Positions 5,751 to 23,462 of a stretch of 23,748 nt of DNA are shown one piece after another. The notes below the pieces were generated by a model. That model worked only from the letters and a program-made list of their open reading frames with translations. It did no database searches and was not told the origin of the DNA. The DNA is from a virus. The stretch covers positions 1 through 23,748 of the IMG/VR virus record IMGVR_UViG_3300037493_001361; one strand, given 5' to 3'. Every line of letters starts with the position of its first letter. The first letter of the stretch is position 1. A program made the translations under genes and the position numbers.

Positions 5751-5921
5751 ATGAAAAAGGATGAAAAGCCAAAAGCTATATTATTAAAAGATATTAGCGA
5801 TGAGGTTTGGGATAAAATGTGTGAAACAAAAAGAAAGATTCTTGCTAACAATAAGAAGCGCGATTATGTTAGCCATGAAGAAGCTATTTATAAACTAATT
5901 AAAAATAACTGCAATGATTGA
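5751..5921 (+). CDS. Small ribbon-helix-helix-like protein (56 aa), possible regulator of the island
   Basis: This 56-residue basic protein opens the plus-strand island. AILLKDIS (residues 9-16) could be the beta strand, SDEVWDKMCETKRKILANNK (16-35) the first helix, and SHEEAIYKLIKN (41-52) the second. That order matches Arc/MetJ-type ribbon-helix-helix DNA-binding proteins, although the loop between the helices is somewhat long. The ATG follows the TATATTTG box by 25 bases, and the TGA overlaps the next gene by eight bases. An inverted repeat stands about 60 bases upstream. The simplest reading is an autoregulator of the divergent promoter region. It might instead be an unrelated small phage protein. 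Confidence 0.5.
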   Translation: MKKDEKPKAILLKDISDEVWDKMCETKRKILANNKKRDYVSHEEAIYKLIKNNCND

Positions 5922-6591
5922 GATGAAACAAATAGACGGAAATAGTATTGACCTGTCTAATAGCGTGGCATTTGTTGAGCATTACAACAAACCAAATTCA
6001 TTCGCTAAACAGATTATTGAAAAAGAAATAAACGCAGGTTTGTGGTATGATGATATACTATTCAATCTACCGAATGATTCTGTAATAATTGACGCGGGGG
6101 CTAATGTGGGTTTGTTTAGCTTGTATATGTTGCCAAGAATTAAAAAAGTTTATTGTATTGAGCCATCTCACGTTAAAACACTTTATTCAATACTTCTAAA
6201 ACTTGCTAATTCATTTTACATTTCAGAATCTGCACTATTCAATTATGATGGTTGGTGTTCATTATTTAGCAATGAAATAAACTCAACAATGAATAACGTT
6301 GTATCTAAAAAAGGTGATACACTATGCCATACGCTTAAAACGTTTACCAATGAAAATAAAATAGAATCAGTTAATTTGCTAAAATTAGATATTGAGGGAG
6401 GTGAACAACAGGTAATAATGGAAGATGAAACTATTGGCGAGGCTTTATCTATTTGCAAGAATGTATTTATAGAAGTTCACCCGATACCATACGGTAACGC
6501 AGACGAACAAGGGATAATAAATAAAATGATTTCATTTGGGTTTAACCATAAAAAAGGGGCGCGAGAATTAAGCCACTACTTTACAAGATGA
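5914..6591 (+). CDS. FkbM-family SAM-dependent methyltransferase
   Basis: This 225-residue protein has class I methyltransferase motifs in FkbM order: IIDAGANVGLFSLY (residues 58-71, SAM-binding motif I), VYCIEPS (79-85, the acidic end of beta-2), LLKLDIEGGE (155-164) and FIEVHP (185-190). LKLDIEGGE is the characteristic FkbM motif. Family members methylate hydroxyls of sugars or small molecules, so a glycan acceptor fits its glycosyltransferase neighbours. ATG 5914 overlaps the upstream TGA; an in-frame ATG at 5923 is a possible alternative start. The gene ends in an ATGA overlap with the next one, so it is part of one operon. The motifs are clear; the substrate is unknown. Confidence 0.85.
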   Translation: MIEMKQIDGNSIDLSNSVAFVEHYNKPNSFAKQIIEKEINAGLWYDDILFNLPNDSVIIDAGANVGLFSLYMLPRIKKVYCIEPSHVKTLYSILLKLANSFYISESALFNYDGWCSLFSNEINSTMNNVVSKKGDTLCHTLKTFTNENKIESVNLLKLDIEGGEQQVIMEDETIGEALSICKNVFIEVHPIPYGNADEQGIINKMISFGFNHKKGARELSHYFTR

Positions 6592-6749
6592 AAACTAAAT
6601 TTACTACACAACGCGAAGAAGAACTACACAACGATTTAAAAACAGTTCTTGAAATGATTTCGACTGCTAAACATACTATTGCAGACGTTTCATTATTGCA
6701 GTTGAAGATTAAGGCGGTTGAACTAAAAGAAAAGCATAATATAAAATGA
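6588..6749 (+). CDS. Small hypothetical protein in glycan island (53 aa)
   Basis: This 53-residue protein is joined to both neighbours by ATGA overlaps, which argues that it is translated. It is strongly helical and charged: REEELHNDLKTVLEMIS and SLLQLKIKAVELKEKHNIK could form two amphipathic helices, as in small coiled-coil or helical-hairpin proteins. No family recognised. It may be an accessory subunit of the island enzymes or an unrelated phage gene. Confidence 0.55.
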   Translation: MKTKFTTQREEELHNDLKTVLEMISTAKHTIADVSLLQLKIKAVELKEKHNIK

Positions 6750-6955
6750 TGACAAAAGAATTTAAAGAAACCTATAACAGAATAGTCACATCATATCAAT
6801 GCGTAAATGCCGCATCTATGCCAAGTTCATGTAACGATTTATCAAACTCAAATAGTTTAGTTATATACGTTGGGTGCGGTAGATTCAAATGCGTTACGGT
6901 AGATGATTTGAATGAAGTAGAATTGTTTTGCAAATCAATCGAAAATATAAAATGA
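6746..6955 (+). CDS. Small hypothetical protein in glycan island (69 aa)
   Basis: This 69-residue protein overlaps both neighbours by four bases (ATGA). An in-frame ATG at 6749 is an equally good start. The composition is Ser-, Asn- and Cys-rich in the middle (Cys19, Cys29, Cys45, Cys49), with YVGCGRFKCVTVDDLNEVEL near residues 42-61, a beta-alpha pattern. No family recognised. Overlap spacing is the main evidence that it is real. Confidence 0.55.
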   Translation: MMTKEFKETYNRIVTSYQCVNAASMPSSCNDLSNSNSLVIYVGCGRFKCVTVDDLNEVELFCKSIENIK

Positions 6956-7710
6956 TAGTCAATAGCTTTTGGGTAAGCGGTAAACTTCAACCGATAAACA
7001 TGCTTTGCATTAAATCATTTATTGCATACGGGCATGAGTTTCATTTATACTGCTATGATTTAAGCGATATGTTCGGGCAACTATCAGAACAACTAACCTT
7101 AGATGAATTAACCAGCGTTCACATTTGTAGTGCAGAATTTATACTGCCACAATCAGAAATATATTACTACAAAAACATGATGGACTGTAAAGAGCATTTC
7201 AAGTATGGCGGTATAGCTGAAAGATTGAAAGCTGAATTACTTTATGCTATTGGCGGTTGGCATGTTGACTTAGACGTTATCTGTTTAAAATCGTTTGAAG
7301 ATTTAACCGAAGATTATGTTTTAAGACCGATTGAAGATACTGTTGTAGGTAATATTATAAAAGCACCTAAAGAATCTAAATTGGCTTTAGATTACGTGAA
7401 CTGGACAAAAGGTATAGATGCTGATAATACTATTTGGAGTAAGTCTTTTGAGGGTTTAGGTTTAGCAGTTATAAATAACGGGATTGAACATTTCATAGTA
7501 GATAAATCTGTATTTGGTATTGATGAATTAGAATGGTTTGAGCCGGTATATAAAAGACTTGAATACGAATATCAAATTTCACACTTTAAAGATTCATACG
7601 CATTGCACATGTGCCAAGCGTGGAGCGTTGAATTAGGATGGGATAAAAACTACCAGCAAGGGAGTTATTATGATTCACTACTAAAAAAATACAACATAAA
7701 TGGAAGATAA
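6952..7710 (+). CDS. GT32-like glycosyltransferase (DxD type)
   Basis: The preferred start is ATG 6952, which overlaps the preceding TGA as ATGA and gives 252 residues beginning MIVNSFWVSG. A start at 6928 would overlap more and is less likely. The fold signature of capsular sugar-transferase (Gly_transf_sug, GT32) proteins is present: an N-terminal strand, a Lys-Ser-Phe helix, then YGGIAERLKAELL (residues 85-97) and IGGWHVDLDVIC (100-111). The latter holds the metal-binding Asp106-Leu-Asp108. The family transfers sugars from nucleotide donors in the cytoplasm. With the FkbM methyltransferase it suggests a modified glycan product. The acceptor is unknown; a phage virion protein or host surface polymer are both possible. 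Confidence 0.8.
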   Translation: MIVNSFWVSGKLQPINMLCIKSFIAYGHEFHLYCYDLSDMFGQLSEQLTLDELTSVHICSAEFILPQSEIYYYKNMMDCKEHFKYGGIAERLKAELLYAIGGWHVDLDVICLKSFEDLTEDYVLRPIEDTVVGNIIKAPKESKLALDYVNWTKGIDADNTIWSKSFEGLGLAVINNGIEHFIVDKSVFGIDELEWFEPVYKRLEYEYQISHFKDSYALHMCQAWSVELGWDKNYQQGSYYDSLLKKYNINGR

Positions 7711-7870
7711 CCAAGAAGAAGCATTAAAGGCAATTTACTTATTGCGAGAAGTAATAAAGCGAAAATTGTTTTCAGGTAGAACACACAGAAACATAAGGCG
7801 CGAACTTGGTTTGAGTTTAAAGAAGTATTTAGCAATAATGAGTTTACCAGAACTACCAAAAAATAAATAG
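7700..7870 (+). CDS. Small basic hypothetical protein (56 aa)
   Basis: This 56-residue protein overlaps the end of the GT32-like gene by 11 bases and ends directly before the next ATG, with no spacer, so it fits the operon. It is basic and helical. RNIRRELGLSLKKYLAIM (residues 30-47) vaguely resembles a helix-turn-helix, but the match is weak. No family recognised. Confidence 0.5.
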   Translation: MEDNQEEALKAIYLLREVIKRKLFSGRTHRNIRRELGLSLKKYLAIMSLPELPKNK

Positions 7871-9328
7871 ATGATACCTGCATTTGTAATAAACATGCCT
7901 AACTCTAAAGAACGTTACAGGCTTTTTCAAGAAGAATGTAAACGTGAAAATATAGAAGTTGAACGGCTTGATGGAGTTGACGGATTGCCTTATTTGCAGA
8001 AAGGAGATAAGCCATTAACGCGCGGTATTATCGGTTGTATTATGGCGAGTAGTAACGCGATAAGATTAGCCAAAGAACGCGGTTATGAATCTGTTTTAAT
8101 ATTTGATGATGATGCTGAATTGTGCGATAATTTCAAAGAGGAGTTAGAAAAGGTAATGAGTGAACTTCCTAAACATTGGGATTTTTTACGGTTACATAAA
8201 ACAACATCGGGAACTCCTAAAATAGAAATCTATTCAGATAATCTAAACCAAGTTTACGGAGGCAATGGAACGTATGGCTATGTAGTTAATTCTCGTTTTT
8301 ATGATGATTTATTGAGATGGCAAAAGGATGAATTTAGAAAGCCATCTAAACAGGATATTGGCTTTATAAAGACTTATGATGTTATCCTACAAGAAATGAT
8401 GAATACCTATTCATTCTTTGAGGTTAAAACTTCTTTAGTATTTCACAGGGACGGATATTCAGATAGAATGGGCATGGATATGAAATACGGACTGAATAAA
8501 CCTGTAAAAGAAGTTTACAAAAAATATGATGGAACTGAAATTGTGATTTCAGAATACAAGCCAGTAGTTAAGATATACTACCCGTTGCACGTTCAACTAC
8601 ATGCTGAAAAGTTAGCTGAAACTCTTTGTAGTTTAGGCTATAACGCACAAGCCACAAGAGAAGTGAATGATGATGATTGTTTGTATATTTTGTATTGTGC
8701 TTTTCAAATTAAGAACCTACCTAAAAAATATATTGTTTATCAATGTGAGCAATGGAACAGCGGTTGGTTTGATAAGTGGTATTGGGATATTATGGACGGG
8801 GCTTTGCAGATTTGGGAGTTTGCCGAATGTAACTTAGAAAAATACCCTGCTAATCTATTGTCTAAAGTTTCTTACGTTCCAGCTGGGTTGGTAAACGGCA
8901 GAATTGAAACTAAGAATATTGATGTTTTGTTTTATGGTGCAATCAGTAAACACAGATTAGACGTAATAAATAACGTAAGGCGAACCGGAATACACATCAT
9001 GTATAAATCTGATGCTTATGGCGAACAAATGAAAGCTATTTTAAGCAGGTCAAAGGTTGTTTTAAATGTTCACTTTTATGAAGATGGATATTTAGAGGCT
9101 TTCAGAATTAACGAGGCTTTGTCTTGTGGTTGCCATGTAGTAAGTGAAAGAAACGATAAAGCATTCTACCCTAAAAAATACCGCGATTTGGTAAGGTTTG
9201 GAACTAACACTAATGAATTATGCTTTGCGATTAGAAACGCGCTAAATACTACACCTAAATATGATTTAAGCGTGTTGGATAACACTAACTACATTAAAGA
9301 GGCATTAAGCAAACTTATCACGAAGTAA
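7871..9328 (+). CDS. Two-domain glycosyltransferase: GT25-like plus CgeB/GT-B-like
   Basis: This is a 485-residue protein with two apparent catalytic domains. Residues 1 to about 200 resemble GT25 (LPS beta-galactosyltransferase type): AFVINMPNSKERY, then LTRGIIGCIMASSNAIRLAK (49-68), and an acidic FDDDAE (79-84) at the metal-binding position. Residues about 225-485 resemble CgeB/Glyco_trans_1_2 proteins: KNIDVLFYGAISKHR, then SRSKVVLNVHFYEDG, then EAFRINEALSCGCHVVSE. A two-step enzyme could add two sugars in turn or pair a catalytic with a binding domain. It is the last gene of the island and overlaps the convergent MuF gene end by 24 bases. No terminator is seen between them. Domain calls rest on motif order; the donor sugar is unknown. 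Confidence 0.8.
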   Translation: MIPAFVINMPNSKERYRLFQEECKRENIEVERLDGVDGLPYLQKGDKPLTRGIIGCIMASSNAIRLAKERGYESVLIFDDDAELCDNFKEELEKVMSELPKHWDFLRLHKTTSGTPKIEIYSDNLNQVYGGNGTYGYVVNSRFYDDLLRWQKDEFRKPSKQDIGFIKTYDVILQEMMNTYSFFEVKTSLVFHRDGYSDRMGMDMKYGLNKPVKEVYKKYDGTEIVISEYKPVVKIYYPLHVQLHAEKLAETLCSLGYNAQATREVNDDDCLYILYCAFQIKNLPKKYIVYQCEQWNSGWFDKWYWDIMDGALQIWEFAECNLEKYPANLLSKVSYVPAGLVNGRIETKNIDVLFYGAISKHRLDVINNVRRTGIHIMYKSDAYGEQMKAILSRSKVVLNVHFYEDGYLEAFRINEALSCGCHVVSERNDKAFYPKKYRDLVRFGTNTNELCFAIRNALNTTPKYDLSVLDNTNYIKEALSKLITK

Positions 9329-16713: not shown

Positions 16714-16911
16714 ATGAAAAAAATAATCTTCGCATCTATTATCATAGCTTCTTTCAGTTCTTGCACTAAACAATGTTTCAAATGTTCTATTGAAAAAGTT
16801 GATAGAAACGGTCAGGTAATAGGAACTACCAATGAAAGATATTGTATTGACAAAGATAGTTATCAATACCAAACAATTAAGAACGACCCCGCTTGTAAGG
16901 CGAGTATTTAA
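16714..16911 (+). CDS. Small predicted lipoprotein, possible superinfection-exclusion moron
   Basis: This 65-residue protein begins MKKIIFASIIIASFSSCTK: charged start, hydrophobic core, then FSSC with Cys17 as the lipobox Cys. That is a signal peptidase II site, so the mature product would be a 49-residue lipoprotein anchored in the host membrane. The mature part has four further Cys (CFKC, YC, AC) and a charged beta-turn region. The gene is on the plus strand, alone, between two minus-strand tail genes, with its own promoter-like element and only one base to the tape measure stop, a typical moron layout. Small phage lipoproteins can block superinfection at the cell surface, but no homology to a known one is visible. 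A remnant of host DNA is the alternative. Confidence 0.65.
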   Translation: MKKIIFASIIIASFSSCTKQCFKCSIEKVDRNGQVIGTTNERYCIDKDSYQYQTIKNDPACKASI

Positions 16912-16912
16912 T

Positions 16913-19273
16913 TTAGCTTTCATATCGGTTATTTAAACTTTGAACCTTTTTGCCTTTTTCAATTACATGCAAAGAGAAACCGCCTTTATCAATATTTATA
17001 TGTGTTTGAGGGTTTGCCCTTAATTCTTCAGCTATTACTTTGCCCAATTTCTTGTAATCTATATCCTGTTTAACAACAACAGCATTTAAGCCACTTATTT
17101 CAGGTGCGTGTGGCATCGGTGGATAATAAGCCGCTTGCAGTAGTTTAGGCAAATCTTCATTTTTAATACCAGCTAACTGCTTATTTATTTCAGTAGGAAC
17201 TACACGCTCCCCAATGTTCAAACGAGCGTGAACGGTATCAACTCCGCTTGGTGCGTTCCCTTGTTCTACATATTCAGTTCCCTTTGCGTATGCTGGAGGT
17301 TTTGCACCTGCTATTAACCCAACCTGTAAAGCTGTTGATGCAATTATAGAAGCAAGCCCAACGAAGAACGCAGGGTTAGGAACAACACCAACAACCGGAG
17401 GCGCGGATGCCATTAAAGTAGTAATTGCCAATGCACCGTTTATAATAGCTTGTTCTTGTTTAGCCTGTTGTTCTGCTTTCCATTGCTTTAATTTTAAAGC
17501 CGCTTCTTGTTTAGCATACTTTTCATCAATAGCCGCCTTTTGCCCGTCTGTTAGGTTTTTATTCTCTAATTCTTTAGTCTTTTTCTTTTCTAATAACTTA
17601 ATACCTTCTTCGTATTCTTTGTTAATTCTATCATTTTGTATATTGAATAGAGAGTTTGATAGTTGTTCTGCAAACTTTATAGATGCCGTTGCTACACTCT
17701 TTTGCAAGTCTAATTCCTCTTTTGCTTTTTTATCTTGAGCAACACCTATTTCATGCAACTGCTTCAACTTTGCATCTTCTGAAATCTTCCACTCCTCACG
17801 TTTTTTCTTTTCCCATTCTTGGAAATCCTCAAAAGACATTGTTTCAAATGCAGTTTGAATTTCTGCCAAATGATTATAATAATCTTCCTCAAACTTTATC
17901 CTATCTTCGTTATTGCTTTTAATTTGTGCAAGTGCCGCAATATGTTCTCTGTAATCTTTTATTTCTTTATTCCATCTGTCATCACGTTGTTTCTTTAATT
18001 CTTCCCATTCAGCATCGCTACGTTTTAGTAATTCGTCAAAGTATGCTTTATCGGCTTGTTCTTTTGCTTTTTTATTATCATCGTCAATCTTAGAACCTGA
18101 CTTTTTAAGGTCGTTAATACGTTTTTGAGATTCTATAATTTCGCCATCACCTGCTAATATTTGTGCTTTTAGCGCGATGTAACTTGCACTTTCTTCTCCA
18201 AAAGTTTTCTTTATTGATTCTGATGCCGTTTCTTGTCCTTTTACGCGAATTTTAATCGCATCTTGCAATTTTTCTTCGTAAGAAATTTTAATACTAATTG
18301 CTTCTCTTTCTGTTTTGGCATTTAATAAATCTCGTTCATGTTGATTTTTTGCTGACTTATCTCTATTCTTTATTCTTGTTTCTTCTTTCTTATCCTCAAG
18401 TTCCTGTAAATCTGATAGTGCTTTTTTACGTGCCGCTATTTCTTCTTCTGTTTCCTGTTGCTTATTAAGCCAATAGATTAAACCTACAACTGCCGCAACT
18501 AAAACTGTAACGCCTCCAGTAGCAGCAGCCCAAGCAGCAGCAGAACTAATAGCAAATCTCTTTTGGATAAACTCAACTACTGTTAATGCCGCCCCGTATG
18601 CCTGTGTAGCTATACCCCCTTTCTCTGTTGCAATATTCGCTAATTCCTGCACCCCTTGAAGTGCCGCCATTGCGCCCTGAACTTTTAGTAAAGTCTTTTG
18701 GACGTTTTCGTTCTCGCTACCTAAAGCCGCCATTGTGCCGGTAACTAAACTAAACCCTGCCGCCATACCACGCGCCCCCTGCACCAATGTATCAAATACG
18801 CGAGTGTCAGAAGCTAGCTTCTTAATTTCGCCCCTTGTATCGCCAATAGTATCTTGTAATTCAGCCGTTGCCTTTGCTAATTCTTTAAACTGCTTTGTGC
18901 CACTTTGCCCCAATGCTGCCATCGTTGCAAGTTCTTTTTGCATTGCCTTTAATGCCCCTGTTGCTGTCCCGTATTTAGTAATTAACGCCTCTGTTACTTT
19001 ACCTTGCTCGTATAGCTTCTCAACCGCGCCCTGTAAGTCTTTAGAGTATTCTTTTATAGCACCATTAGCAACAGTTTTGTTTAAGTCCTGTAAGTTAGTG
19101 GCTAATTGCTTAGTGCCTTGTTCGGCTTGTTGGTTTGCCTTGTTTACTTCCGCGAACGCAGTTTCGTAATCCTTTCCAGTTTTGATTACCTGCTTATCTA
19201 CGTCCTGTAAACTTTTTTGAAGTTGGTCTGTATTGCCTATAAAGTCAATTACTACCGTATTATCTTGTGCCAC
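16913..19273 (-). CDS. Tail tape measure protein
   Basis: This is a 786-residue protein, the second longest in the window. It starts with GTG 19273 (MAQDNTVVIDFIGNTDQLQK), the usual short beta start of tape measures. It has long heptad-rich coiled-coil stretches at about 20-160 and 275-605, with Lys/Glu-rich runs. Two hydrophobic segments are visible: about 242-269 (ISSAAAWAAATGGVTVLVAA) and 609-658 (ending with QVGLIAGAK), as in tape measures that cross the host membrane. A C-terminal region follows with GERVVPTEIN. The chaperone gene and its frameshift precede it, the standard tape-measure neighbour. By the common rule of about 0.15 nm per residue, the tail would be near 115-120 nm, an inference only. 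Confidence 0.85.
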   Translation of the reverse strand: MAQDNTVVIDFIGNTDQLQKSLQDVDKQVIKTGKDYETAFAEVNKANQQAEQGTKQLATNLQDLNKTVANGAIKEYSKDLQGAVEKLYEQGKVTEALITKYGTATGALKAMQKELATMAALGQSGTKQFKELAKATAELQDTIGDTRGEIKKLASDTRVFDTLVQGARGMAAGFSLVTGTMAALGSENENVQKTLLKVQGAMAALQGVQELANIATEKGGIATQAYGAALTVVEFIQKRFAISSAAAWAAATGGVTVLVAAVVGLIYWLNKQQETEEEIAARKKALSDLQELEDKKEETRIKNRDKSAKNQHERDLLNAKTEREAISIKISYEEKLQDAIKIRVKGQETASESIKKTFGEESASYIALKAQILAGDGEIIESQKRINDLKKSGSKIDDDNKKAKEQADKAYFDELLKRSDAEWEELKKQRDDRWNKEIKDYREHIAALAQIKSNNEDRIKFEEDYYNHLAEIQTAFETMSFEDFQEWEKKKREEWKISEDAKLKQLHEIGVAQDKKAKEELDLQKSVATASIKFAEQLSNSLFNIQNDRINKEYEEGIKLLEKKKTKELENKNLTDGQKAAIDEKYAKQEAALKLKQWKAEQQAKQEQAIINGALAITTLMASAPPVVGVVPNPAFFVGLASIIASTALQVGLIAGAKPPAYAKGTEYVEQGNAPSGVDTVHARLNIGERVVPTEINKQLAGIKNEDLPKLLQAAYYPPMPHAPEISGLNAVVVKQDIDYKKLGKVIAEELRANPQTHINIDKGGFSLHVIEKGKKVQSLNNRYES

Positions 19274-20011
19274 CCTGTTTCATTTGAGGGTTATTTTGTT
19301 TTGTAGTGAGGGCTTTATTTAGCTTACTCATAAATTCGTAAATCGTATCGTTTATACTGCTCCACTTACTTTCATCTCCTCCGAGAATAACCGTTCTGTA
19401 AAGTTCGGTAAATCTTTCTTCTGTTGCCCCGACAATATCGTTAAGACTTTTCCCAACTGTGCTTTGTCTAACTCCTTTTGAATCTCTGTATAGCTCAGGG
19501 AACTCGTAGCGGAATCGTTCAAGTAAGGAAGTAACCTCACTATTGGTTCGTGCAAAAAAAAAGCAAGAGCCGATTCATGCTTCTTCCAATGTTCAATCTT
19601 TTTAGCCGCGTAACTCCATTCCCAATCATCGGGATTCTCTGAATTATCAAAGAATACAACAGATGCTAACTTATAAACCAAGTCCTCACTATGCACCCAA
19701 GTTAAACGCTCCTTTAATTGGTTGTTTAAAGTCAATACACTTGATAATTCTTTTAAACCTACCTTACCAGTTGTCAATACTTTTTCAACTGCCTTAACGT
19801 GAGCGTCTAAATAAAACGCATCACATTTCATGCTTAGTTCATCATATACTGAAAAGAACTTTAACGCTCTTTTGTATGGCAGATTTGCGATAGTGTCAAA
19901 CTCTTTATAATCAACACCGCCAACAGTAAAAGCATATTTGGTAACGTGCTTTGTAGCGGTAAACTTTGAATATCCGAAAAGGTTATATTTTATCTTATCT
20001 ATAAATCGCAT
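19260..20011 (-). CDS. Tail assembly chaperone, -1 frameshift fusion product
   Basis: Reading begins at ATG 20011 and runs in the zero frame for 152 codons. A -1 slip on the nine-T run at 19554-19562 then leads to a stop TAA at 19260-19262. The fusion would be 250 residues. The extension after the slip begins FARTNSEVTSLLERF and includes ELYRDSKGV, NDIVGATEERFTELYR and EFMSKLNKALTTKQ, a clean amphipathic, coding-like stretch of about 98 residues that ends 14 bases inside the tape measure start. The layout matches the G/GT chaperone pairs of long-tailed phages, in which a minor fraction of ribosomes shift -1 and the fusion helps the tape measure fold. By hand count the third-position GC of the extension (22 of 66 codons) is lower than the zero frame over the same interval (32 of 66), so the -1 frame is the more gene-like. 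Confidence 0.7.
19352..20011 (-). CDS. Tail assembly chaperone, zero-frame (short) product
   Basis: Same start as the fusion; without the slip translation continues to the stop at 19352, giving 219 residues (MRFIDKIKYNLFGYSKFTAT..., ending EEMKVSGAV). The last 67 codons overlap the -1 extension. The protein is a mixed alpha/beta chaperone-like product without a recognised domain name; its place before the tape measure is the evidence. The zero frame after the slip has more G or C at third positions than the window's usual, perhaps because both frames are constrained. If the T run is miscounted in the assembly, this product may be an artefact and only a single 250-residue frame would exist. 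Confidence 0.65.
   Translation of the reverse strand: MRFIDKIKYNLFGYSKFTATKHVTKYAFTVGGVDYKEFDTIANLPYKRALKFFSVYDELSMKCDAFYLDAHVKAVEKVLTTGKVGLKELSSVLTLNNQLKERLTWVHSEDLVYKLASVVFFDNSENPDDWEWSYAAKKIEHWKKHESALAFFLHEPIVRLLPYLNDSATSSLSYTEIQKELDKAQLGKVLTILSGQQKKDLPNFTERLFSEEMKVSGAV
19554..19562 (-). other. Slippery homopolymer (nine T on the coding strand)
   Basis: The chaperone reads GCT TTT TTT TTG CAC here, and T TTT TTT is a slippery heptamer for -1 slippage at codons 151-152. The two Phe codons re-pair perfectly after the slip. Nine identical bases also raise the chance of an assembly error, so the frame should be checked. Confidence 0.6.
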
Positions 20012-22489: not shown

Positions 22490-22690
22490 CTAATTTTCCT
22501 TTTGCAGTTTAAAAAACATCGGCTTTAGTTTATCGGGTATCTTCTTAACCAACCTACCGCCTTTAAAGTTATCACTTACAATTCCTTTTAGCTGACTGCA
22601 GAATCCTTTTGAGGTTTCAAATATAAAATATAATCGCTTATCGGAGGTTACTAAGTTAAATCCGTCTTTGGTTTGGTAGAGTTTAGGCAT
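22490..22690 (-). CDS. Small hypothetical protein (66 aa)
   Basis: This 66-residue basic protein (MPKLYQTKDGFNLVTSDKRL...) has the beta-rich look of a small single-domain protein and no family I recognise. Its start overlaps the Mom-like gene's end by eight bases. Evidence is the overlap and the complete frame; function unknown. Confidence 0.55.
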   Translation of the reverse strand: MPKLYQTKDGFNLVTSDKRLYFIFETSKGFCSQLKGIVSDNFKGGRLVKKIPDKLKPMFFKLQKEN

Positions 22691-23462
22691 GTTTTCTTTT
22701 TGGGTATGGTTTTATTAAATGCTCAATTTTTGATTTGTGATATTGTTGTTCTTTTTTTGTGCCTGTAAATAAAAAGTATCTGTGTTTACTATTTTGCTTT
22801 ATCCTAACTGCATCTGGGTATATCTTCAAAATATCTTCCATTCTTTGAGAGCCTACCTTTTGCCTTATATTTCTACTGCCAACTAATTTACCTTTTATCA
22901 TCCACGCCTCCCTATCTATTGTCTTTCCGTTGGCTTTAGGATTACTTTCCCGCATACTTGCAACGTAGTGGAAATTACAAGCCTGATAGATAGTTCCTAT
23001 TTCCCCCGCTAAATGGTCTGTTGTTGCTGTTACTATTTTATATTTTTTGGGTAATAATTTTACCGCGCTCATTATCAATTTGCTATTTGTATTTATTGGA
23101 GTCCAATGTAAACAAACGCCCCTGCTTAATAATATTATTTTGCCTGTGTAATCGTATTTATCCCATACACCTAAATTTTCTGTGTATTCTTGACCGAAAA
23201 CAACTACACCGCCACAAACATTGTCGAAAAATATACCAAAAGCGAAAAAGTTTACAGCTGGCATACAGCCCAACCACTCATATTCAATAATCATTTTAGC
23301 GGCAGAATGTAAATCAATTTCCTTTACTACTGCTTTCTTTAAATCTGTATCTAAATTGCACCAATAATTGCCAAAGAGATTATTCAAATCTGAAATAGAC
23401 TTTTTATCTCTTATGATTTTTTGGTGAGCAACCCCTATATCGAATACCTGTCCTATCATCAA
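22683..23462 (-). CDS. Mom-like / GNAT-fold protein, possible DNA modification enzyme
   Basis: This 259-residue protein shows a GNAT-like order: DLHSAAKMIIEYEWLGCMPA (residues 51-70), FAFGIFFDNVCGGVVVFG (73-90), LSRGVCLHWTPINTNSKLI (112-130) and TTDHLAGEIGTIYQACNFHY (147-166). The last two blocks match the pattern of Mu Mom-family proteins, which modify adenines in phage DNA to block restriction; a similar GTxYxAxNW element also occurs in DruA-type proteins, so the family call is not final. It lies just after the VRR-NUC gene and ahead of terminase, fitting late DNA modification before packaging. A four-base overlap joins it to the nuclease gene. Catalysis was not checked residue by residue. 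Confidence 0.6.
   Translation of the reverse strand: MMIGQVFDIGVAHQKIIRDKKSISDLNNLFGNYWCNLDTDLKKAVVKEIDLHSAAKMIIEYEWLGCMPAVNFFAFGIFFDNVCGGVVVFGQEYTENLGVWDKYDYTGKIILLSRGVCLHWTPINTNSKLIMSAVKLLPKKYKIVTATTDHLAGEIGTIYQACNFHYVASMRESNPKANGKTIDREAWMIKGKLVGSRNIRQKVGSQRMEDILKIYPDAVRIKQNSKHRYFLFTGTKKEQQYHKSKIEHLIKPYPKRKHA

Follow-up and report, generated by a model that had tools for sequence, protein, structure and literature searches.

A gene directly upstream of the tape-measure gene of an uncultured phage of Bacteroidota type very probably gives rise to two proteins by a one-base backward slip on a run of T. We consider it highly likely that these are two forms of one tail assembly chaperone, the longer of which would be made by -1 ribosomal frameshifting. 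The chaperone family is new and the mechanism is a known one; the distinctive feature is the long stretch coding in both frames (38-69 codons across the family). The window, i.e. the whole stretch of DNA that was analysed, corresponds to one virus record of IMG/VR (23,748 bases). Coordinates are collected in Table 1.

Table 1. Positions of the gene, its slip site, neighbouring features of the window and sites in other loci
Feature	Position	Strand	Remarks
Short product, zero-frame ORF	19352..20011	minus	219 aa; ATG at 20011, stop ends at 19352
T9 slippery run	19554..19562	minus	zero frame reads GCT TTT TTT TTG
First in-frame heptamer, T_TTT_TTT	19556..19562	minus	in 96/99 loci
Second in-frame heptamer, T_TTT_TTG	19553..19559	minus	same as the P2 E/E+E' slip site (PMC3091744)
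-1 frame extension	19260..19562	minus	FFFARTNSEV...QGGTR; TAA 19262-19260
Dual-coded stretch	19352..19553	minus	about 66 codons in both frames
Tape-measure gene	16913..19273	minus	GTG at 19273 overlaps the end of the -1 extension
Mom-like DNA modification protein	22683..23462	minus	Pfam PF25680, E 1.5e-24
FkbM methyltransferase and two probable glycosyltransferases	5914..9328	plus
Lipoprotein-like ORF	16714..16911	plus	65 aa; MKKIIFASIIIASFSSC...
Slip site with A9	L020 4361-4369; L035 2612-2620		one lineage
T10 run	L052 4444-4453		same stretch in G454:C29 near 152800
PDS1-type chaperone loci	L030 3543-4316; L031; L082-L089; L250-L254
PDS1-type gene annotated as two ORFs	L088 1201-1966		Croceibacter phage P2559S

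Inspection of the window confirmed the nine T that the original prediction had described within the 219-residue frame; no other run of A or T in the window is longer than seven. The -1 frame, which had been expected to stay open for about 98 codons and to stop just inside the tape-measure gene, contains 97 open codons past the run (or 100 with the three Phe codons of the run itself), and its TAA lies 11-13 nt into the tape-measure ORF. The predicted long product has 250 aa, made up of residues 1-152 followed by the -1 extension. A standard ORF listing of the window gives the shorter frame only, as had been anticipated for automatic calling, and in the family the long product is missed by automatic annotation in all but one locus. 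Third-position GC across the overlap had been counted by hand as 22/66 codons in the -1 frame and 32/66 in the zero frame; on recounting, the values were very similar, 22/68 and 33/67, respectively, and the neighbouring structural genes have 27-33%.

The agent of the slip (the ribosome rather than RNA polymerase), the ratio of the two products and the chaperone function are what we infer beyond the sequence itself. Most ribosomes would stay in the zero frame and make the 219-aa short form. On T_TTT_TTT or T_TTT_TTG both tRNAs would, in a minority of ribosomes, shift their pairing back by one base, and reading would go on in the -1 frame, yielding the 250-aa long form, in which a helical domain of about 98 residues would follow about 152 common residues. 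By analogy with gpG and gpGT of lambda, the common part may bind the tape measure, and the -1 domain may recruit the major tail protein.

When the synonymous codons of the zero frame of the window were permuted, the -1 frame stayed open across the overlap in none of 2000 trials. The same permutation left it open in less than 6% of the trials for 31 of 35 loci. A chance origin of the open -1 frame is excluded. Between the window and the related locus L003, zero-frame synonymous divergence was 0.42 before the slip and 0.10 within the overlap; pooled over 16 pairs, it was 0.75 and 0.38, respectively. For the tail that is read in the -1 frame only, the comparison of the window with L003 gave a dN/dS of 0.05, from 10 changes at 17 synonymous sites and 4 at 70 nonsynonymous sites, and the 16 pooled pairs gave pS 0.66 and pN 0.24. 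This tail is evidently under purifying selection. Which frame is the better conserved one in the overlap varies by pair: it is the short form for L026/L048 and the long form for the window and L003. The drop of zero-frame synonymous divergence in the overlap and the constrained -1-only tail form the pattern that translation and selection of both frames would give.

A survey of IMG/VR and of GTDB genomes, together with prophage searches, yielded 99 distinct loci, situated in virus contigs and in prophages; among them are loci from Dysgonomonas sp. 216 and from uncultured Bacteroidetes bins, in a prophage or a contig. Homologues of the short product have 95-30% identity. The prophage survey found the gene in 1 of 393 genomes of an order and in 3 of 101 genomes of a family, and tblastn with four queries revealed no cultured relative among 50,697 phage records. 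In every relative the -1 frame is open past the run, and the extension, which has 86-112 codons where measured, can be aligned throughout. For the prophage of Dysgonomonas sp. 216 (L026), predicted peptides are FFFTKAVTGINSIFAECR... from the long form and FFLQKPLLELIPFLQNVEF... from the short form.

A slippery heptamer stands in frame at the same place in each of the 99 loci; it is T_TTT_TTT in 96, T_TTT_TTC alone in one and A_AAA_AAA in two. T_TTT_TTT is usually followed by an overlapping T_TTT_TTG, T_TTT_TTA or T_TTT_TTC. With the amino acids present and the codon usage of the respective contig taken into account, chance alone would be expected to give the heptamer at about 30 of the 96 T-type sites. 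By far the commonest run is T9, found in the same register in 76 distinct loci. Shorter runs are T8 (seven loci), T7 (five loci, GAT TTT TTT A..) and T6 (one locus); L145, reading GAT TTT TTC TTG, has no long homopolymer; its heptamer is intact and the -1 extension is retained. The extension is conserved, and the heptamer is in frame, in all thirteen of the T8, T7 and T6 loci. On a maximum-likelihood tree of the short proteins T8 arose on several branches, and the run length changed at least 11 times (T9, T8, T7, T6, T10, A9) with the in-frame heptamer never lost; these counts of changes are minimal, and the loci are not mutually independent. Since the larger set holds T8, T7 and T6 (TTT TTC) sites, the constant feature in this set of sequences is the in-frame T_TTT_TTY (or A_AAA_AAA) heptamer, not nine T. 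Conservation among relatives had been proposed as a check of both the T run and the extension: the extension and the in-frame heptamer were kept, but the length of nine T was not constant. The constancy of the in-frame heptamer, together with the inconstancy of run length, favours -1 ribosomal frameshifting of the lambda G/GT or P2 E/E+E' type.

In the lineage of L020 and L035 the slip site lies about eight codons further upstream and T9 is replaced by A9; the former FFL motif has decayed to MFL.

The extension could also be reached if RNA polymerase inserted an extra U at the nine T and the resulting mRNAs were translated normally. We leaned to this transcriptional slippage as the main mechanism after the first 37 loci, in which every run was nine or longer, as in the published criterion of a conserved run of nine (Baranov 2005, PMC1088944). 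The predominance of T9 counts against ribosomal frameshifting, since RNA polymerase, too, can slip on nine T (PMC1088944); transcriptional slippage is described for runs longer than eight T, Shigella mxiE being the example given (PMC3711429). Other genes of these phages avoid A or T runs of eight and longer: elsewhere A runs of at least nine were seen 3 times (18.7 expected) and T runs of at least nine were not seen (3.8 expected), with in-frame A7 tolerated (29 seen, 32 expected). When 28 loci were folded in sliding windows and compared with dinucleotide shuffles, no specific conserved or stimulatory RNA structure was seen downstream or upstream of the site, nor was a conserved structure found in the short-run loci alone; the lack of a conserved downstream structure was counted for transcriptional slippage.

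The T8, T7 and T6 sites in register demoted transcriptional slippage to a rival, which we now regard as quite unlikely. Programmed transcriptional realignment would go with a conserved run length of 8-9 or more, but the five T7 loci and the T6 locus conserve the extension, and the short-run loci always have the in-frame heptamer. Slippage by E. coli polymerase in a reporter amounted to only about 5-10% at T7/T8, with nothing below T7 (PMC6260861). By this measure T7 should give a few percent, and T6 plus C should give no polymerase slippage. On the tree, moreover, run length is labile but register is not.

In the L052 prophage the run is T10: the zero frame encodes the long form, and the conserved short tail stays open in +1, out of reach of -1 frameshifting. 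This arrangement, which -1 frameshifting could not produce, counts against our proposal, and that both tails are still readable at T10 speaks for the polymerase. It is conceivable, though doubtful, that in the T9 and T10 lineages, including that of the window, polymerase slippage adds to ribosomal slippage, so that the family would hold both mechanisms and could move between them. If so, the L052 prophage would represent a lineage living on polymerase slippage alone. We know of no tail chaperone made by polymerase slippage.

The T10 run and single frame of L052 might also suggest a sequencing or assembly error in the window, the true run being ten T in one uninterrupted 250-aa frame. The original prediction had singled out such a corrected count as a danger to itself. 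We find this hardly credible: the two nearest relatives, L002 and L003, which come from other, independent metagenomes, also have T9 and keep the -1 frame, T9 stands in the same register in 76 distinct loci, with T6-T8 in others, and the zero frame past the run is itself conserved across the family. Relatives lacking a -1 reading, the second danger that had been named, did not turn up.

Overlap is common among phage genes, and the -1 ORF might be a separate overlapping gene with its own start, which is very improbable. In the window the first ATG, GTG or TTG of the -1 frame comes 74 codons into the extension, and a start codon within the first fifth of the extension occurs in only 3 of 97 loci; internal initiation is therefore not available. 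In addition, the -1 homology starts exactly at the run. Programmed -1 frameshifting in a tail chaperone gene, as originally predicted, is supported by the position of the gene, the heptamer, the extension, the dual coding and the purifying selection.

The tail chaperone identity of the gene is supported by synteny and architecture. In tblastn the best E value of the tape-measure protein was 7e-9 against proteins annotated as tape measures in Porphyromonas, Parabacteroides and Bacteroides phages, and 7e-10 against a stretch of an Alistipes phage without annotation; its match to a tape-measure PHROG is weaker (E 7.6e-4). A long ORF adjoins or overlaps the -1 stop in 95 of 98 loci; in the median of 95 loci, the start of this next ORF lies 4 nt ahead of where the -1 stop ends. 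Upstream of the 219-aa ORF, on the minus strand, lie three small ORFs and the terminase large subunit gene (Pfam Terminase_3). The three small ORFs had no family matches, and no major tail protein was identified adjoining the gene.

Three further features of the window were noted. A Mom-like DNA modification protein is encoded upstream of the terminase genes. A plus-strand segment coding for an FkbM methyltransferase and two probable glycosyltransferases is inserted into the minus-strand structural operon. The lipoprotein-like ORF, which has 97% identity in L003, takes up almost all of the space separating the tape measure from the minus-strand gene that follows.

Structure prediction gives the short product, with good confidence (mean pLDDT 83), a beta hairpin and then helices. 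The -1 extension is predicted, with low confidence, to form helices (pLDDT 65). The short form runs 41-72 residues past the slip in its own conserved frame, so that it is more than a slightly shortened long form: the two products are similar in length (in the window, 219 against 250 aa) and end in different, selected C-termini. The short form matched no Pfam or PHROG family, no member of a 31-row alignment matched a tail-chaperone family, and a fold search of the PDB with the short form gave no match. Judged by such profile comparisons, the gene is not a member of any Pfam or PHROG chaperone family.

These results would name a previously unlabelled gene family of many uncultured Bacteroidota-associated phages (about 99 distinct loci). 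A frameshift in Bacteroidota phages was not described in the literature searched; the classic tail-chaperone frameshift would extend to Bacteroidota, with the slip site kept through the changes of run length described above. Because run length varies and the in-frame heptamer does not, the family is a natural test of slip-site requirements.

Bacteroidota phages have a second chaperone family, that of PDS1, B40-8, B124-14 and FPSV, whose gene is annotated as tail assembly chaperone in several records. Its members include PDS1, TCUEAP2, AS73P1, BKO1-3, BF486P2, P2559Y, UZM3, FPSV-S2, tant8-1 and others. Homology of the window family with the PDS1/B40-8 chaperones was considered and rejected: hhalign gave a probability of 3.9%, i.e. 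none was detectable. Like the window gene, the PDS1-type gene stands before the tape measure and has a conserved mid-gene homopolymer, a run of A9-A11 at codon 128-132 in 14 of 15 representatives. Both other frames meet stops at most about 30 codons past this run. The PDS1-type gene is a candidate for dnaX-like slippage: unlike in the window gene, the zero frame encodes the long form, and the product of slippage would be a truncated short form. The fifteenth representative, that of Croceibacter phage P2559S, is annotated as two ORFs because it has A8 where its relatives have A9-A11; it may be either a real split gene or a homopolymer miscall.

Two-product frameshifts ahead of the tape measure have long been known from long-tailed phages. 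In pairs of the G/GT type the short form is in excess, and both forms are needed for tail assembly and are absent from the virion. By position and architecture, the gene described here belongs with these tail assembly chaperone pairs: it lies directly upstream of the tape measure, and its sequence predicts two products with a common N-terminus and an in-frame slippery site. In lambda the shift occurs near the 3' end of G (PMC5009743). The window gene resembles lambda G/GT in the common N-terminus of the two products, the -1 shift and the place before the tape measure, but its short form has a conserved C-terminus of its own, and family searches found no protein similarity.

P2 E/E+E' (Christie 2002, Xu 2004) uses a T_TTT_TTG slip site without a downstream hairpin (PMC3091744), and the P2-like Smp131 and related prophages have a T7G or T7C site (PMC3931495). 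No protein similarity to P2 E/E+E' was found. As in P2, the gene precedes the tape measure, T_TTT_TTG is present, there is no downstream hairpin, and the -1 extension reaches into the start of the tape-measure gene. Unlike in P2, most sites have T9 and a pair of overlapping heptamers, and the two frames share 38-69 codons, whereas 37 nt are described for P2. The nine-base homopolymer of most members recalls Shigella mxiE and Thermus dnaX (PMC1088944, PMC3711429); in contrast to these, some lineages of the present family have a shortened run (T7 or T6), and the in-frame heptamer is always kept.
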